This document shows, in pieces, positions 2,512 through 10,631 of a stretch of 25,492 nucleotides of DNA. The notes beneath the pieces were generated by a model. It did no database searches. It had not been told where the DNA came from and saw nothing but the letters and a program-made list of their open reading frames with translations. The DNA lies in IMG/VR virus record IMGVR_UViG_3300035698_013581, positions 1-25,492 of that record. One strand, written 5' to 3'. The translations under genes and the position numbers were made by a program. This DNA comes from a virus. Every line of letters begins with the position of its first letter. Within the stretch, counting starts at the first letter, position 1.

Positions 2512-2931
2512 CTATGCCTGACCTGCATGATGGACGGGGGCGCCCAGACCGGCCCGGCAAGCCCCGGCCAAAGCCTCGCGCTCGCGCAACCTACGGCCAT
2601 GCCGGATGAAGCACCGCGCGGCAGCCGGGAAGCTGCCAAACTGCCGGCAGTCGCTACCCTCTGCGCCCGCAAACGGGCCAAGCTGCACCCGCCACCTGCC
2701 ATCCCCGCACGGCAGCACAGCCAGTGGCTCCATCAGCCCGAAACCCGATCCGTTGTAGGCATAGATGCCGCCATTGCTGCGGAACAACGCGATCTCCCCC
2801 ACCTGAACCGCCTCGACTGACTCGCTCGAACGGGCCAGGAAGATCCGGACGACCTGATTGCGAGGCTTCTCAGAGCTTCCGATTTTCAATTCCGAATTCC
2901 CTTTCTGATATCCATCGTATTCAGCGGCCAT
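2512..2931 (-). CDS. Hypothetical protein, leftward, between repeat array and terminator
   Basis: 139 aa from ATG 2931. The same frame is open to another ATG at 3018, but that part is built from the 43-bp repeat array, whose units each carry a GGAAATG string, so the true start is uncertain. No family recognised. The middle looks like an ordinary folded protein (QVVRIFLARSSESVEAVQVG, then EIALFRSNGGIYAYNGSG and GDGRWRVQLGPFAG), rich in beta-strand patterns; the C-terminus is Arg/Ala rich (IRHGRRLREREALAGA). No membrane segment. It is followed by an intrinsic terminator at 2368-2405, which supports it being transcribed. Opposite-strand open frames here have poorer composition. Its place beside the control region would suit an early or regulatory phage protein, but nothing in the sequence proves this. 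Confidence 0.5.
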   Translation of the reverse strand: MAAEYDGYQKGNSELKIGSSEKPRNQVVRIFLARSSESVEAVQVGEIALFRSNGGIYAYNGSGFGLMEPLAVLPCGDGRWRVQLGPFAGAEGSDCRQFGSFPAAARCFIRHGRRLREREALAGACRAGLGAPVHHAGQA

Positions 2932-3109
2932 TTCCGAATTGCGCGAAGTGCCTACGGGACTATGCAGAAACCATTTCCCCGTTAAATGGGCTGGATTACC
3001 GAGATATGCTGAAACCATTTCCGCGCTTCATTTCCCGTTTCCCATCGTAGGCAGAAATCATTTCCGAATTGCATTCAGCGCATTTCTGAATTGCGCTTCC
3101 TGCAATTCC
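2887..3109. repeat. Phased direct-repeat array, about 43-bp period (iteron-like)
   Basis: CATTTCC begins at 2929, 2972, 3016 and 3059, spacings of 43, 44 and 43 bp. The related CAATTCC begins at 2887 and 3103, extending the same phase by one unit on each side (42 and 44 bp). Several units are preceded by a conserved block: GCAGAAAC (2964-2971), GCTGAAAC (3008-3015), GCAGAAAT (3051-3058). Units at 2929 and 3059 continue with GAATTGC. GAAACCATTTC is itself a short inverted repeat (GAAA/TTTC). The period is close to four helical turns, so bound proteins would line up on one face of the DNA. A replication-origin iteron set, partition site or enhancer-like operator array are all possible. Confidence 0.7.
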
Positions 3110-3123
3110 GGCCTGCCTGGAAT

Positions 3124-3155
3124 TGATATTTATACGGTATTTTTACGGTTTTCAA
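3124..3155 (-). promoter_or_regulatory. Overlapping operator-like elements with possible leftward promoter
   Basis: Two copies of the dispersed element overlap by 3 bp: TGATATTTATACGG (3124-3137, 11 of 14 matches to CGGTATTTATACCG) and CGGTATTTTTACGG (3135-3148, 12 of 14). Reading leftward, TTGAAA (3155-3150) and TAAATA (3132-3127) are 17 nt apart, a plausible promoter for the leftward gene ending at 2512, with a long leader running through the repeat array. The overlap of elements and -10 matches the layout at 2204-2238. Confidence 0.45.
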
Positions 3156-3275
3156 CTCCGCATCGGAATTTTCCCGCAATATCCGACACGATATTGCGGT
3201 CGCACCCAGATCCCAAGCCGGAATATAGGTTTTTCAATGGGTTAGCCGTTTTCCGGTTTCGAGTGCGAAACCCGC

Positions 3276-3593
3276 GGTGTAACCCCCTGGCGCCTGCCGG
3301 TTACAGCCGGTTTCACGAATTTCCCTTATAGATCAACGCTGTAACCGGTGTGCCCTGTGTAACCGCGGTTTTGCATGTAGGGGTGTAATGGGGTGGTGAT
3401 ATCATATTGGGGCATATCAATTACCCCTTTTGGCAATATGAATACTAAAATATGCAGAAATGGAGAATGCACCCTTATATATCTGTTATCTAGGTACACA
3501 AGTAACATTAGTAACACATAGGATAGAATGTAGGTTCTCTGCGGGTCTCCGGTGTAACAAAATTCTTAGAGTAAAATTACACCAGGTTACACA
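3276..3593. repeat. Cluster of GTGTAAC/GTTACAC motifs
   Basis: At least eight copies or near-copies lie within about 320 bp in both orientations: GGTGTAACC (3276-3284), CCGGTTACAG (3297-3306), CTGTAACCGG (3339-3348), GTGTAACCGCGGTT (3357-3370), AGTAACA (3501-3507), AGTAACACA (3510-3518), GGTGTAACAA (3551-3560), ATTACACC (3577-3584) and GGTTACACA (3585-3593). The copies at 3297 and 3339 form an exact 10-bp inverted repeat. A further copy, CGGTGTAACAG, is at 10992-11002. The stretch 2932-3755 holds no strong gene; it appears to be a control region. Confidence 0.55.
3326..3415 (-). CDS. Possible 29-aa leftward small ORF
   Basis: ATG 3415 is preceded by AAAAGGGG about eight bases upstream, a strong ribosome-binding site, and a possible leftward promoter lies further up (TTGTGT 3501-3496, 16-nt spacer, TATAAG 3479-3474). 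The peptide is MPQYDITTPLHPYMQNRGYT followed by GHTGYSVDL; its GYTGHTGY part is encoded by the GTGTAAC repeat motifs. No family recognised. It could be a real small protein, a leader peptide or chance, since the repeats alone may explain the sequence. Low confidence. Confidence 0.25.
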   Translation of the reverse strand: MPQYDITTPLHPYMQNRGYTGHTGYSVDL

Positions 3594-3755
3594 TCTTGAG
3601 CTGATCCCGCGGCCGTTTCAGGAAATCCTGCGGCTCGAATTCCCCCACCCCAGAACCCGCCCCTTCTGCCCTCGCCCCATACCCTCCACAATTTACCGCC
3701 CCAGATCCCGCATAAACCGCTTGATGATCGCGTATTTTTGCGCAACACTTCCGCC

Positions 3756-4405: not shown

Positions 4406-4651
4406 ATGAGCGAATTCGGGGGCCAACATCTTCGCCAGATCGTCCAGCGGATCGAGCGGCTGGAAGAGGAAAAGGCAGCCCTGGCCGAGGACATCAAGCA
4501 GGTCTACGCCGAAGCCAAAGCCCACGGGTTCGATACCAAGATCCTCCGGCAGGTGATCCGGCTTCGGCAGATGGATAAGGCGGATCGGACGGAGCAGGAG
4601 GCGCTCGTCGACCTCTACCTGGATGTGCTGGAAGTGCAGCCTGTCGGTTAG
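4406..4651 (+). CDS. gapR: DUF2312/GapR-family DNA-binding protein
   Basis: 81 aa with a strong AAGGGGA ribosome-binding site six bases before ATG 4406. The protein matches the GapR/DUF2312 family (formerly UPF0335) over nearly its whole length: LRQIVQRIERLEEEKAALAE (residues 9-28), then DIKQVYAEAKAHGFDTKILR and QVIRLRQMDKADR...EQEALVDLYL. GapR of Caulobacter is a small coiled-coil, nucleoid-associated protein that clamps overtwisted DNA ahead of replication and transcription and stimulates type II topoisomerases. The long N-terminal coiled coil is visible as heptads. A phage copy may help replication or high-level late transcription, or shape DNA for packaging. The family is essentially alphaproteobacterial, which supports the host assignment. 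It lies 20 bp after the preceding gene and is probably co-transcribed. Confidence 0.88.
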   Translation: MSEFGGQHLRQIVQRIERLEEEKAALAEDIKQVYAEAKAHGFDTKILRQVIRLRQMDKADRTEQEALVDLYLDVLEVQPVG

Positions 4652-5252: not shown

Positions 5253-5786
5253 ATGGCACCGCCTCGCACCGTGAAACCTCTTGGCAGGGAATACAAGCTG
5301 CCGGATCTCGCGCAGGCATTTGGCATGGAGGTTTCCACACTTCGTCAGTATGTTCGGGCCGGCATGCCGGTTGTTCGTCTTGAGGGAAGAACAAACATCC
5401 TAAATTCCGCCGAGTGCTTCCGCTGGATTGTCGCTAAGCGCATCGGTATGGAGGCCGCGCCCTCCTCGCCCGCCCCCGGCAAGGCCGAGCGCGAGCCATC
5501 CGCGAAGGATCGCAAGGAGCGCGCCGATGCCGCCCGTGCCGAGCTTCGCGCCCTGGAGGATTACGGGGCGCTCATCTCGGTGGATGCGGTAGGCATGGCC
5601 ATTGATGATGCATTGGTCGCGGTTCGCCAGAACCTGCTCAACCTGCCCAAGCGCGCGGCGCCCGTACTCGTGGGGATCAATAACCCCAACAGGATCGAGG
5701 CTGAACTGCTGGAGCTGGTTAAAGGCGCTCTAGTCGAGGTATCGGGCAGAGATGTTCTACAATCCGCAGCAGCCGCAGCAGATTGA
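5253..5786 (+). CDS. Terminase small subunit, Nu1-like
   Basis: 177 aa. The N-terminus is a winged helix-turn-helix of the Nu1/MerR-like kind: LPDLAQAFGMEVSTLRQYVR (about residues 16-35), AGMPVVRLEGRTNILNSAEC and FRWIV. This part recognises the packaging site. The middle (residues 70-95) is a charged Arg/Glu-rich helix (AKDRKERADAARAELRALED), usual in Nu1 proteins, and the C-terminal part (AIDDALVAVRQNLLNLPKRA) matches the region that contacts the large subunit. Start ATG 5253 has only a weak ribosome-binding site, but no better start exists. The last 35 bp overlap the large-subunit gene, as expected for coupled translation. The likely DNA target is the palindrome-containing region at 5171-5252. 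Confidence 0.88.
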   Translation: MAPPRTVKPLGREYKLPDLAQAFGMEVSTLRQYVRAGMPVVRLEGRTNILNSAECFRWIVAKRIGMEAAPSSPAPGKAEREPSAKDRKERADAARAELRALEDYGALISVDAVGMAIDDALVAVRQNLLNLPKRAAPVLVGINNPNRIEAELLELVKGALVEVSGRDVLQSAAAAAD

Positions 5787-7830
5787 CTACCTGTTCGGTG
5801 AGTACCTTGTCGACATCGACAAGGTGGCCGAACGGGATGCAGACCGCGCCGCGGATCTGGTCCGCCGGGCGCTTGCACGCAGCTTCCGCCCGCCGCCCAC
5901 GCTCGCGGTTTGGGAGTGGGCGGATCGGTACCGGCAACTGCCTTCGGAAACGAGCAGCGAGCCGGGCCGCTGGCGTACCAGCCGGGCACCCTATCAGCGC
6001 GATATCATGGCCGATTTCACCGACCCGGAGGTCGAGTCAATCGACTGGTGGGCAGGTAGCCAGCTCGGCAAGTCCGAGGTGCTGCTCAACATCATCGGGT
6101 TCTGCATGCATCAAGATCCCAGTCCGATGCTGCTTCTGGAGCCCACTGTCGAGATGGTACGGGATTTCAGCCGCTCCCGCATCGCGACCATGCTCGAAGT
6201 TACCGAAGTGCTACGCGACCTGGTCGCCGCGAAGAACGCGCGCGAAGGCGAGAATAATACCCTCTTCAAGAAGTTCCCCGGCGGGCTGCTGGCTATGGCC
6301 GGCACCAATACCCCGGTGGGTCTGGCCACCCGCCCCATCCGCGTGCTGCTGGCCGATGAGTGCGACCGGTACCCATTGGAAGCCGGGCGTGAAGGTGCGC
6401 CGCTTGATCTGGCTGAGAAGCGCACGAGCAACTTTCACAATCGGAAGATTGTCACGGTAAGCAGTTGCACCGATGAGGCTACCAGCATCATCGCGGCGCG
6501 CTATGCCGATACCGACCGCCGGCAGTATCACATCGGCTGCCCAGGCTGCGGCGAACGGCAGGTGCTGCGCTGGCGCCCCGGCACCGATGGCCTGGGCGGC
6601 GTGGTGTGGAATGGCACCGATCCGGGCACGGCTGAATACTGCTGCGTATCCTGCGGCACCCTATGGCCTGATAGCGCGCGTTGGCAGGCGATCCGTGGAG
6701 GCATCTGGCTGCCGCAAGCGCCCTTCACTGGTCGCCGCGGGTACTGGCTATCGAGCATCAACTCGCCGTGGGTGAAGCTTTCCACCCTTGTGCGGGAGTT
6801 CAAGGGCGCCGGTGGCGATCCGGTGAAGTTGAAGACGTTCGTCAACACCCGCCTTGCGGAGCTGTGGAAGGATCAGAGCGACCGCATCGAAGAAAGCGAG
6901 GTGCACGAACGGGTCAAACATGAAGCCCTTGAGATCGATCAGGCGCCGGCAAGGGTCGTGGCCATCACGGTCGGCTGCGATGTGCAGGACGATCGTCTGG
7001 AAGCCGAGCGGGTTGGCTGGTGCGTTGGAGATGAGAGTTTCAGCCTGGAGTATCGGGTGTTCTTTGGCGACCCTTCGACACCTGAGTTATGGGAGGATTT
7101 CGAGCGGTGGGCGCTGGCGCCATACCCGCATGCGCTGATCGATGAAATGGCATGCCACGCCGTCTGCGTGGATAGCGGCGGCAGCCACACCCAGGCCGTC
7201 TACGATTTCTGCCGGCAGCGGCATGACCGCAATGTGTGGGCGATCAAGGGCGCGGATGGCCCGCGGCCGATCTGGCCGCAGCGCGCTACGAAGGCAAAGC
7301 GCGGCCTCGTGAACCTCTACATCGTCGGTGTGGATAGCGCGAAGGAGCAGGTCTACGCGCGCCTCAAGATGGATCGGCCCGGCGCCGGCTATATGTGGTT
7401 CCCAGCGGATCGCGATGCCGAGTACTTCCGGCAGTTAACGGCAGAGGAAAAGTTCACGGTCGTCGAGAAGGGCCGGCGGGTGCACAAGTGGCGCCCGCGC
7501 GGCCGGCGCCGGAACGAGGCACTGGACTGCAGGGTCTATGCATATGCTGCGCTGCACGGGCTGCGCGTGCTTCGCCGCGTCGATCTGGCTGCGGAATGGC
7601 GGGCGATCACCAACCGGGCGCGGCGGCTTGAAGCCACGGACGGGCGACAGCGGATGCCGGCAGATGTGCTGGCCATGCTGCAGGCCGTCGGCGCCGTGGC
7701 ACGTGCCCTGGCGGGCGGCAGGCGGGCGGTGCCTACGCCGATGGCCGATACGCCGCCGCCAGCACCGAAGCCTGCAGGCGGACGCCAGGGCAAGCGACGG
7801 CGCCGGGTGCTGGGGCGAATGAGGATTTGA
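5752..7830 (+). CDS. Terminase large subunit (gpA family)
   Basis: 692 aa, close to lambda gpA (641 aa). It drives ATP-dependent packaging and cuts the concatemer at cos. N-terminal ATPase: P-loop-like AGSQLGKSE at residues 101-109 and Walker B VLLADECDRYP around 198-208, with the acidic pair D202/E203. A Cys4 motif typical of this family lies at 263-300 (CPGCGERQ and CCVSCGTLW). The C-terminal nuclease has the RNase H-like acidic residues: GCDVQDD (D410), VCVDSGG (D474) and LDCRVYAY (D592). The start ATG 5752 lies inside the end of the small-subunit gene. The last 50 residues are Pro/Arg-rich and probably flexible (KPAGGRQGKRRRR); they may bind the portal, as the gpA C-terminus does in lambda. 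Confidence 0.95.
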   Translation: MFYNPQQPQQIDYLFGEYLVDIDKVAERDADRAADLVRRALARSFRPPPTLAVWEWADRYRQLPSETSSEPGRWRTSRAPYQRDIMADFTDPEVESIDWWAGSQLGKSEVLLNIIGFCMHQDPSPMLLLEPTVEMVRDFSRSRIATMLEVTEVLRDLVAAKNAREGENNTLFKKFPGGLLAMAGTNTPVGLATRPIRVLLADECDRYPLEAGREGAPLDLAEKRTSNFHNRKIVTVSSCTDEATSIIAARYADTDRRQYHIGCPGCGERQVLRWRPGTDGLGGVVWNGTDPGTAEYCCVSCGTLWPDSARWQAIRGGIWLPQAPFTGRRGYWLSSINSPWVKLSTLVREFKGAGGDPVKLKTFVNTRLAELWKDQSDRIEESEVHERVKHEALEIDQAPARVVAITVGCDVQDDRLEAERVGWCVGDESFSLEYRVFFGDPSTPELWEDFERWALAPYPHALIDEMACHAVCVDSGGSHTQAVYDFCRQRHDRNVWAIKGADGPRPIWPQRATKAKRGLVNLYIVGVDSAKEQVYARLKMDRPGAGYMWFPADRDAEYFRQLTAEEKFTVVEKGRRVHKWRPRGRRRNEALDCRVYAYAALHGLRVLRRVDLAAEWRAITNRARRLEATDGRQRMPADVLAMLQAVGAVARALAGGRRAVPTPMADTPPPAPKPAGGRQGKRRRRVLGRMRI

Positions 7831-7861: not shown

Positions 7862-8629
7862 ATGGATAGGGATCGGCTGCAACGCATCATAGAGTTTGCC
7901 ATCAAGGGCGCGGTGGCAGCCGTCTGGGTTGTGGTTGGTGCGTTCGTTCTACTTCTGCTGATCCGCAAAGGCATTGAGGCAGACTATGGACCGCTCATCG
8001 TGCTGGACATGCGGGCCGGTACTTATGCCGATTGGTTCGGAGCTGTCGCGTCGGCAATGGCAGCTGGAGTCGCAGTGTATTTTGGCACAATGGAAGTGAG
8101 AAGAATTAGGCGACATCAAGAACAAATAGAGATAACAAGAAATTCGAAGGAAGCCGAGTTACTACAGGAATTGAGAAATCCTGTATTTGAATTCTATGAA
8201 TATCTGAAAATATGGAAGAAGGTGTTTTCTGAAATATTATCGGATGCGGAAATTGCCAACATATCTAGAGATGATATGTTTCGTGCCCCGTATGACAACA
8301 ACGTTCTAACTTCTGTTTCGGAAAAAATAAAGAATAAATTAGGATCTATTAGATTTGAAATTTTCGAATGTGACTATACGTTTTTCAGAATGGAGCAAAG
8401 AAAGGTTGACTATATGCTAGAAGGATTCAATTTTTGTGCAGATTTGTATGAATTTGGTATTAAATCATCAACTGACACAAGATCCGTCTCACTATCGCAT
8501 TTTGGCGGCATTGAATTTATGTTGGAGACTATAGAAGTAAATCTTTCTAGAATAGAACCCATACTATCTGCCATAGACACTCGTATATCTCTCTTTTCAA
8601 GCATCGAAACTTCTACTGACTACCTATAA
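7862..8629 (+). CDS. Two-TM membrane protein with AT-rich C-terminal domain (moron)
   Basis: 255 aa. Two hydrophobic segments: residues 15-36 (AIKGAVAAVWVVVGAFVLLL) and about 58-76 (WFGAVASAMAAGVAVYFG), followed by a charged, mainly helical domain of about 175 residues, probably cytoplasmic (VRRIRRHQEQIEITRNSKEA; LRNPVFEFYEYLKIWKKVF). This architecture resembles DUF4760-like or other two-TM phage accessory proteins, but I cannot assign a family firmly. Base composition changes inside the gene: the first ~230 bp are GC-rich like the neighbours, while from about 8095 to the stop it is strongly AT-rich with many AAA, ATA and TTT codons. It sits between large terminase and gpW, which are usually adjacent. 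It is probably a moron such as a superinfection-exclusion or defence protein; that role is a guess. Confidence 0.7.
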   Translation: MDRDRLQRIIEFAIKGAVAAVWVVVGAFVLLLLIRKGIEADYGPLIVLDMRAGTYADWFGAVASAMAAGVAVYFGTMEVRRIRRHQEQIEITRNSKEAELLQELRNPVFEFYEYLKIWKKVFSEILSDAEIANISRDDMFRAPYDNNVLTSVSEKIKNKLGSIRFEIFECDYTFFRMEQRKVDYMLEGFNFCADLYEFGIKSSTDTRSVSLSHFGGIEFMLETIEVNLSRIEPILSAIDTRISLFSSIETSTDYL

Positions 8630-8841
8630 GGTCTGTTTACTACCCTCCTGCAGATTTCTACGACCGGTCGCATCTCGCATCGCCTGGCCGATGATCCGAT
8701 CCAGGATGCTGCTCCCAATGCCCTCACTCTGCCCAGCGGCGCATTATCGCCGACATACGTCACCACGCCGCCGCCTTGCTTCGAGTGATCGAAGACCGTG
8801 ACGTAGCATTTCGCCACCTCCCCGCCTTTCATTCCACGCAT
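8620..8841 (-). CDS. Small leftward ORF, probably frameshifted, inside the late cluster
   Basis: The open frame from ATG 8841 gives 73 aa. Its first half reads like an ordinary protein (KCYVTVFDHSKQGGGVVTYV GDNAPLG), the second half less so. If one G is added at the CCC at 8732-8734 (GGG on the coding strand), the frame continues as QSEGIGSSILDRIIGQAMRD and ATGRRNLQEGSKQTL, ending at a stop at 8624-8626 directly next to the TAA (8627-8629) of the convergent upstream gene. The shifted version looks much more protein-like and fits its neighbour exactly. No family recognised. Transcription would start near the operator palindrome at 8847-8861. The gene faces against all others in the head module, so it is probably an accessory gene. 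Confidence 0.45.
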   Translation of the reverse strand: MRGMKGGEVAKCYVTVFDHSKQGGGVVTYVGDNAPLGRVRALGAASWIGSSARRCEMRPVVEICRRVVNRPYR

Positions 8842-8872
8842 TGTTGCGGTATACTATACCGGTATATTTACC
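8841..8872 (+). promoter_or_regulatory. Rightward promoter with palindromic operator in the spacer
   Basis: TTGTTG (8841-8846) and TATATT (8863-8868) are 16 nt apart, a good promoter whose start would lie about 15 nt before gpW at 8890. The spacer is CGGTATACTATACCG (8847-8861), a perfect palindrome around a central C. A second copy, CGGTATATTTACC (8860-8872), overlaps it by 2 bp and covers the -10. The pair belongs to the dispersed element family seen at 2204-2217 and 3124-3148. Confidence 0.55.
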
Positions 8873-8889
8873 TTTCCGTAGGCGAAGCA

Positions 8890-9108
8890 ATGGCCACTGT
8901 CGAAGAGCTGCAGGCGCAGCGCGCCGAGCTGGAAAGTGTCCTCAACACGGGCGCCGCCAGCGTTTCACATGGCGACAAGTCAACGGCATTCCGCTCCCAG
9001 CGGGATATCCGGGAAGCAATCGCGCGGATCGACCGACAGATCGCAGATGCGACGGGTGGCAAGCGTCGCCATCGGCAGGTCCGAGTTCTCACAAACAGGG
9101 GGCTGTAG
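8890..9108 (+). CDS. Head-tail joining protein, gpW family
   Basis: 72 aa, the length of lambda gpW (68 aa). ATG 8890 has AGGCGAAG upstream; longer open frames upstream are artefacts of the promoter region. The sequence follows the gpW pattern: helix VEELQAQRAELESVLNTGAA, beta hairpin SVSHGDKSTAFRSQRDIREA, then helix IARIDRQIADATGG and a basic tail RHRQVRVLTNRGL. gpW binds the portal after DNA packaging and makes the platform for the next neck protein. The gene lies directly before the portal gene, its usual place, and its stop overlaps the GTG start of the portal. Confidence 0.85.
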   Translation: MATVEELQAQRAELESVLNTGAASVSHGDKSTAFRSQRDIREAIARIDRQIADATGGKRRHRQVRVLTNRGL

Positions 9109-10631
9109 TGGCAGGCATGCAGGCGGGCCGTTACCCCGCTGTCCGCATCAAGGGAACAAAGCTCTACCTGCATCGCGGATCGTCGCGGATGTTCGATGGC
9201 GCCACCACCGGCCGCAGGCTGCGGAAGTGGAATCCTGGCGTCATGGGTATCAACACTGCCCTATCCTACACCCTGCCGCTTCTGCGCGCCCGCAGCCGCG
9301 ACCTGTACGCCAACTACCCATGGGTCCGCCGCGCGCTCCGCAGCTTGCGCAATAGCGTCGTCGGGCATGGCATTCGGGCACGCAGCAAGGCGCCAAGCCC
9401 GGAGCTGCGGGAAGAGATCAACGGGCTATGGGGCGACTGGTCATGGGAGGCCGATGCGGACCAGGTGCACCGGCTGGATGGGCTATTCTCCCTTGCGTTC
9501 CTTGAGCAGATGCGGGCTGGCGACTGCTTCATCCGGCTGCGGAACCGGCGGCCCGATGACGGGCTATCGGTGCCATTGCAGCTCCAGTTGCTGCCCGCGG
9601 AAATGTGCCCGTGCGAGCTGAATGGCACGGCTGCGAACGGCAATACGATCATTGCCGGCATCGAGATCGATCAGATCGGCCGGCGGGTAGCGTACCACTT
9701 CTACCGCAGCCATCCTCACGAACAGCACGGCAGCCGGATAGCGGGAGTGCAAACGGTGGCGGTGCCGGCAAGCGAGGTGCTGCACATGTACGACCCGGAA
9801 GTGGTAGGGCAGATGCGCGGCATTCCGGCCGCGGCAGCCATCCTGCTGCGCAGCCAGGAAACGCGGGAATACGAAGAGGCAGAGCTGGCCCGCAAGAAGG
9901 TGAGCGCCATGCTTGCCGGCTTCATCCAGCAGCCATCCGACGAGTCGCCCGGCGCCCTGAACGAAGACACCGACCACGAGTTTTCCGACAACGATGCCGG
10001 GATTGTCGAATGGGAGCCGGGCAGCATCCAGGTTCTCGGGCCGGGTGAAGAGATCACCTTCACGGCGCCCCAGGATAGCGGCGCCAGCTATGATCCTCAC
10101 ATGAAGATGCTGGCACGCAGCATCGCTGCCGGCCTGGGCGCGACTTACGAGCAGATGACGGGCGATCTATCACAGGTCAACTTTTCCAGCATCCGTGCCG
10201 GGCTGTTGGAGATGCAGAAGGAGTACGAGTATTTCCAGGGCGTGCTCACGTTCCAAGCCCTGCGCCCGGTGCGCAAGCGCTGGTTTGAGCAGGCCATCCT
10301 ATCGGGCGCCCTGCGCCTTCCGGGCAGCGCCCGGATAACGCCCCGGCTGTATCTGCGCACCGAGTACATTCCCCCCGGCTGGCGCTACGTCAATCCAAAG
10401 GATGAGCAGGCGGCGGATGAAGCTGCCATCCGCTCCGGCATCAAATCCCGCACCCAGGTTGTTGCCGAGCGCGGCCGCGATGTTGAGGAGGTGGACCGGG
10501 AGCAGGCTGAGGATGCGGCGCGCGAGGCGGCGCTTGGGCTTTCCTACAGCTTTGCTGGCGGTGCAGCGCAGCCCGCGGCCGCCGACCCTGCGCCGAACGA
10601 CGAGGCCGTTCCTGCAGCGACGGAGGGCTGA
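9108..10631 (+). CDS. Portal protein, lambda gpB family
   Basis: 507 aa from GTG 9108, which has AGGGGG about six bases upstream and shares its G with the gpW stop; ATG 9117 is an alternative. Lambda gpB is 533 aa. Recognisable family parts: RSRDLYANYPWVRRALRSLR (about residues 63-82), RNSVVGHGIRARSK, MRAGDCFIRLRNRRPDDGLS, the Pro-rich QLLPAEMC, AGIEIDQIGRRVAYHFYRSH P, EVLHMYDPEVVGQMRGIPAA, LARSIAAGLGATYEQMTGDL and SQVNFSSIRAG. The C-terminus holds RTEYIPPGWRYVNPKDEQAA and a long charged helix (residues 445-480). It forms the dodecameric ring at the capsid vertex through which DNA passes. A Pro/Ala-rich tail ends the protein. Overlap with the next gene is 1 nt (TGATG). Confidence 0.95.
   Translation: MAGMQAGRYPAVRIKGTKLYLHRGSSRMFDGATTGRRLRKWNPGVMGINTALSYTLPLLRARSRDLYANYPWVRRALRSLRNSVVGHGIRARSKAPSPELREEINGLWGDWSWEADADQVHRLDGLFSLAFLEQMRAGDCFIRLRNRRPDDGLSVPLQLQLLPAEMCPCELNGTAANGNTIIAGIEIDQIGRRVAYHFYRSHPHEQHGSRIAGVQTVAVPASEVLHMYDPEVVGQMRGIPAAAAILLRSQETREYEEAELARKKVSAMLAGFIQQPSDESPGALNEDTDHEFSDNDAGIVEWEPGSIQVLGPGEEITFTAPQDSGASYDPHMKMLARSIAAGLGATYEQMTGDLSQVNFSSIRAGLLEMQKEYEYFQGVLTFQALRPVRKRWFEQAILSGALRLPGSARITPRLYLRTEYIPPGWRYVNPKDEQAADEAAIRSGIKSRTQVVAERGRDVEEVDREQAEDAAREAALGLSYSFAGGAAQPAAADPAPNDEAVPAATEG

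Follow-up and report, generated by a model that had tools for sequence, protein, structure and literature searches.

Gene and feature context of the array

The window analyzed here is the whole 25,492-bp stretch covering positions 1–25,492 of IMG/VR virus record IMGVR_UViG_3300035698_013581. Lambda-type packaging and head genes occupy its right part, small and largely unrecognized leftward genes its left end, and an array of short repeats is placed between the leftward group and the rightward packaging/head group (Table 1). The leftward gene next to the array has no recognized relative or domain; ATG at 2931 is its likely start, with TTG at 2884 also possible. Codon statistics supported coding from 2931 to 2512 and disfavored an upstream extension through 2932–3018, which identifies the array as a non-coding leader that overlaps the gene start. 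The array is thus non-coding except at its left end, where the minus-strand gene begins. Searches with this gene returned zero matches in the phages and plasmids covered, a single-protein scan was likewise empty, and ten genomes gave marginal matches only. Structures predicted for two leftward proteins were below usable quality (pLDDT 52 and 37). No ParB-, repressor- or initiator-like gene and no partition gene was recognized among the scanned proteins of the window, which is an incomplete fragment.

Two further genes of the window deserve mention. Directly right of the control region, positions 4406–4651 encode a GapR-like nucleoid-associated protein (PF10073, E 1.3e-32), here phage-encoded. 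Between TerL and the portal gene, a low-GC gene at 7862–8629 apparently encodes a membrane protein; the 8001–9000 stretch has a GC content of 45% versus 63% overall, and the gene looks like a late acquisition.

Two leftward promoter-like blocks were identified, one beside the array and one ahead of the gene that starts at 2161. They are identical at 21 of 25 positions (3155–3127 versus 2224–2200), a score reached in none of 300 shuffles, and this similarity suggests joint control of two leftward units. In both, the spacer contains an operator-like CGGTATAAATACCG element. Neither block was listed by a stricter consensus promoter scan, so that we infer the promoter from a weak consensus match. 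The array would fall in the transcribed leader of a leftward transcript from the 3155–3127 block.

Table 1. Coordinates of genes and sequence features (window positions unless another contig is named)
Feature	Position	Strand	Remarks
Second leftward promoter-like block, TTGAAC-ACGGTATAAATACCGCA-TAGCCT	2196–2224	−	Upstream of gene starting at 2161
Leftward gene	2512–2931	−	139 aa
Site 1, CAATTCCGAATTC	2887–2899	+	Dyad CAWTTCNGAAWTG with one mismatch; lies over early codons of the leftward gene
Site 2, CATTTCCGAATTG	2929–2941	+	Perfect dyad; CAT at 2929–2931 is the likely ATG of the leftward gene
Site 3, GCAGAAAC-CATTTCC	2964–2978	+	Left-hand dyad GAAACCATTTC
Site 4, GCTGAAAC-CATTTCC	3008–3022	+	
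Extra CATTTCC	3029–3035	+	Out of phase; 13 bp past site 4
Site 5, GCAGAAATCATTTCCGAATTGC	3051–3072	+	Most complete unit; both dyads
Site 6, GCATTTCTGAATTGC	3080–3094	+	Perfect 15-bp dyad; 22 bp past site 5
Site 7, GCAATTCCGGCCTGCCTGGAATTG	3102–3125	+	Half-site on 22-bp step; inverted copy 3119–3125
Leftward promoter-like block, TTGAAA-N17-TAAATA	3127–3155	−	Operator-like ACCGTAAAAATACCG within spacer
Inverted repeat CCGCAATATC-CGACAC-GATATTGCGG	3174–3199		Perfect, 10-bp arms; upstream of the leftward promoter-like block
TGTAACC/GGTTACA repeats	3275–3590		Both orientations, around AT-rich stretch
TerS-like gene	5253–5786		
TerL gene	5752–7830		
Portal gene	8841–10631		
O-like HTH_36 replication initiator gene, viral contig L003	976–1755		GGAAACCATTTCCG repeats at 1290–1346 and around

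Architecture of the repeat sites

The array comprises seven in-phase sites and one out-of-phase copy. Exact CATTTCC occurs at 2929, 2972, 3016, 3029 and 3059 (spacing 43, 44 and 43 bp without 3029, which is out of phase), CAATTCC at 2887 and 3103, and the near-copy CATTTCT at 3081. A sequence-only reading of this DNA had reported six of these sites, and its coordinates proved right in each case, as did its placement of the array beside the leftward genes and across the start of one of them; two others escaped it, the copy at 3029, which is out of phase, and the near-copy at 3081, which falls on a half-step. Its conserved block ahead of several units was recovered as a GCAGAAAC-like element preceding three of them (2964, 3008 and 3051). 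GAATTGC, which it had placed after two units, does follow the sites, but it does so three times (2936, 3066 and 3088).

Conservation within the array is limited to the sites and does not extend to the spacers. In core-aligned units, the TATGCAGAAAC element preceding CATTTCC showed a mean identity of 68% versus 26% in shuffles (maximum 50%), whereas the spacers, one pair excepted, reached 44% identity versus 41% after shuffling, with their lengths nearly kept.

Part of the sites are also symmetric. The dyad CAWTTCNGAAWTG is present at four of them, three times perfectly and once with one mismatch, and no further copy with ≤2 mismatches was detected elsewhere in the 25-kb window. At sites 3 and 4, the right dyad half is missing and the left-hand dyad GAAACCATTTC is present instead, while site 5 has both. 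Gap-1 dyads with 6-bp arms numbered six against 1.6 expected, a count that one of 500 shuffles reached. As to operator-type features, four sites are dyads, the three others do not have the same dyad form, and the adjoining promoter is predicted from sequence.

Spacing and helical phase

Autocorrelation gave peaks at 130, 87, 43 and 65 bp, with 22 bp also raised. The distances between individual sites include two consecutive 22-bp steps (3059–3081–3103) and one of 42 bp (2887–2929). Together with the half-step copy at 3081, these peaks point to an underlying grid of ~21.7 bp with several slots empty. The 43-bp period proposed from sequence is hence one of the peaks and not the grid itself. Compared with iteron-like tandem repeats of 17–22 bp, the grid here has most of its half-steps vacant.

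The period had further been equated with four turns of B-DNA, placing all bound proteins on one face. Computed over all eight forward sites, vector strength peaked within the range of 9–12 bp/turn at 10.8 bp/turn, where it was 0.88, compared with 0.26 at 10.5 bp/turn; on the 21.7-bp grid it rose to 0.99 with 3029 omitted. The first and the last site would lie over half a turn apart around the helix if the DNA were relaxed. These values indicate that a shared face is a fair description for neighboring sites and not for the entire array on relaxed DNA. Of the original proposal, a non-random array in an apparent control region stands, a pure 43-bp grid does not, and one-face phasing is approximate.

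Excess over chance and search for relatives

Chains of four copies of any exact 7-mer, at any period of 20–70 bp (±1), appeared in none of 2,000 dinucleotide-preserving shuffles of 2800–3200. This comparison is post hoc, because the region was picked for its array, and a scan of other loci provides the fairer control: only four loci in 1.98 Mb contained such a chain, and the two that were viewed (L023 and L103) consist of plain tandem or coding repeats. On the strength of the shuffles, the other-loci scan and the alphaproteobacterial genomes, we rejected a chance origin of the array.

Searches of phages, plasmids, viral contigs and 385 alphaproteobacterial genomes yielded no related array among the matches listed. 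Triple CAWTTCC occurred in 96 stretches of the viral contigs; among 118 matches in the loci retrieved, 112 were spaced throughout by multiples of 3, as is typical of coding repeats, and six were plain tandem repeats, low-complexity or unrelated sequence, with no relative among them. Two of the 385 alphaproteobacterial genomes matched the pattern, neither being array-like beyond it. The control region itself had no match in phages and matched plasmids in one short stretch outside the array, an 87-bp segment within a histidine kinase gene of a Pseudoroseomonas plasmid that was taken as unrelated. Two viral contigs with doubled GAAACCATTTCC (L004 and L005) were discarded as relatives, their matches falling in coding sequence. 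Another such contig, L003, carries 22-bp-spaced GGAAACCATTTCCG repeats within a lambda O-like HTH_36 initiator gene; it was selected by the doubled GAAACCATTTCC pattern itself. The corresponding GGAAATGGTTTCC tandem class was rejected as a general iteron class in alphaproteobacterial genomes, where one match in 240 genomes equals the control level. In the open-licence literature, we found no described 43-bp phage array.

Alignment-based scans of phages, plasmids, genomes and viral contigs recovered TerL relatives with ~50% identity or less among the matches listed, so that closer relatives may exist beyond these; a single-protein TerL scan had no match. The TerL-relative loci from the first scans contained neither GapR/DUF3775 genes nor any of the leftward genes.

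A neighboring TGTAACC cluster as a probable replication origin

Within 3250–3600, GTAAC/GTTAC is present in eight copies versus 1.0 expected (shuffle maximum 7), surrounding an AT-rich stretch (3400–3600, GC 34–37%). The cluster and this stretch lie 150–450 bp away from the array, and the TGTAACC repeats are closer than the array to the AT-rich stretch. A pattern search of viral contigs retrieved similar clusters in 25 contigs, and in some of these as many as 21 copies fall within 350 bp. The 19 proteins beside such clusters included one each with VapE-like, toprim, Prim-Pol plus DUF927, and helicase domains, as well as two integrases and one baseplate protein; the rest were unrecognized. Because such clusters lie beside primase or helicase genes in some contigs, the TGTAACC cluster with its AT-rich stretch is probably a replication origin. 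The DnaA-box patterns applied to the window had no match, and a phased array like the present one was absent near the cluster in all 25 contigs. TGTAACC clusters may represent a recurrent phage origin type and are simpler to pursue than the array. The view that a non-random array occupies an apparent control region is supported, with a probable origin in its vicinity.

Candidate functions of the array

We tentatively favor, at somewhat less than an even chance, a cooperative operator array for one sequence-specific DNA-binding protein. This prediction is preferred because conserved sites alternate with unconserved spacers of near-constant length, part of the sites are dyads, the 22-bp steps stand at the promoter-like block, and the array overlaps the start codon. 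The three 22-bp-step sites adjoin a promoter-like block that resembles the one ahead of another leftward gene. The regulator would be a phage protein encoded outside the fragment or one of the unrecognized products within it. Cooperative binding could spread from the 22-bp-spaced sites near the transcription start (3059–3125) along the 43-bp-spaced ones, and the bound regulator would repress the leftward transcript and block the start codon at 2931. Against the operator array, most sites lie 60–230 bp downstream of the supposed transcription start, which is unusual for a simple operator; no candidate binding protein was recognized among the scanned proteins; sites 3 and 4 deviate in symmetry; the promoter matches the consensus weakly; no related phage with the array appeared among the matches listed; and the sites are out of phase at 10.5 bp/turn.

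Because an AT-rich region and the TGTAACC cluster lie so near, the array might instead belong to the origin and work with both, as iterons or as an incompatibility/copy-control set for a phage initiator. The usual iteron spacing is ~22 bp, and the initiator gene of L003 carries repeats at this spacing. In some contigs, TGTAACC clusters have VapE-like, toprim or Prim-Pol/DUF927 genes as neighbors, which fits a replication function. Cooperativity of iterons depends on their helical placement (PMC4980987). We nevertheless regard this possibility as unlikely, given that the 25 contigs with TGTAACC clusters are all without a comparable phased array close by, that L003 was pattern-selected and carries a motif that does not form a general class of iterons, that the array occupies the leader of the leftward gene, and that no DnaA box was detected in the window. 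Slightly less credence goes to a tandem duplication, now decayed and without present function, of the region where the leftward gene starts. On the minus strand, the units read GGAA-ATG followed by M-x-S/A-A/E-Y-like codons (MISAYDG at 3061, MVSAYLG at 3018, MVSA-stop at 2974 and MAAEYDG at 2931), and the lag-130 pair shares 72% identity along 46 nt that include the spacer, so that duplication is probably part of the history of the array. Neutral decay, however, would erode sites and spacers equally, whereas here the sites and their 42–44-bp distances are kept and the spacers, one pair apart, are no longer similar. The reading frames of the units also differ, no evident Shine-Dalgarno sequence precedes their start codons, codon statistics oppose coding in 2932–3018, and one unit, at 3081, occupies a half-step.

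Two other proposals carry little weight. Control of translation by the repeats in leader RNA, as hairpins or protein sites combined with short upstream reading frames, appears improbable: a transcribed leader of ~190 nt would contain MR-stop, a 21-residue frame and MVSA-stop, with GGA in most units, but the leader strand folds barely above shuffles (z −1.69), folding is stronger on the opposite strand (z −3.33, partly via the inverted repeat at 3174–3199), and no RNA family reached the gathering threshold at any position of the window. More improbable still is a centromere-like partition site for a ParB-, ParR- or ParG-like protein. Arrays of short repeats beside a promoter are the usual form of such sites, and the shape of the array is what speaks for this function; the failure to recognize a partition gene among the scanned window proteins speaks weakly against it, the fragment being incomplete.

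A bolder version of regulation can also be formulated, to which we assign a low probability: a regulator of an undescribed family might assemble along the 240-bp leader on the 21.7/43-bp grid, which at ~10.8 bp/turn would be matched to underwound DNA or a superhelical filament, and might couple repression of the leftward operon to firing of the adjacent origin.

If the array does bind protein, it would mark the control point of a phage lineage for which no close relative was found in the collections searched, and its mixed 22/43-bp spacing would offer a natural test of helical-phase dependence in cooperative repressors or initiators.

Comparison with known systems

Iterons of the RK2, P1, R6K and lambda O type resemble the array in their ~20-bp repeats, cooperativity dependent on helical placement, and nearby AT-rich region (PMC4980987). 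L003 supplies a phage iteron example that shares a similar GAAACCATTTCC core, with the repeats located within the initiator gene, an arrangement also seen in lambda O. The array differs from iterons in that alternate steps of its grid are mostly empty, it is situated in a gene leader, and an initiator was not recognized in the fragment; moreover, the TGTAACC family here already fits the part of origin iterons.

The cooperative operator array that we favor has a counterpart in phage 186, where Apl binds helically spaced direct-repeat operators in the switch region with strong cooperativity and DNA bending (PMC7498355). The likeness to the Apl operators (pR-pL and att) consists in near-helical direct repeats within a switch region, while the spacing is 10–11 bp there and 22/43 bp here, and the protein is known there whereas no Apl homologue was identified here.

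Lambda OR/OL present three operators beside an early promoter. Here, four more sites follow at 42–44 bp far downstream, sites 3 and 4 differ in symmetry, and a CI-like gene was not recognized in this fragment; the resemblance resides in the three 22-bp-step sites at an early-type, putative promoter, some of them dyads.
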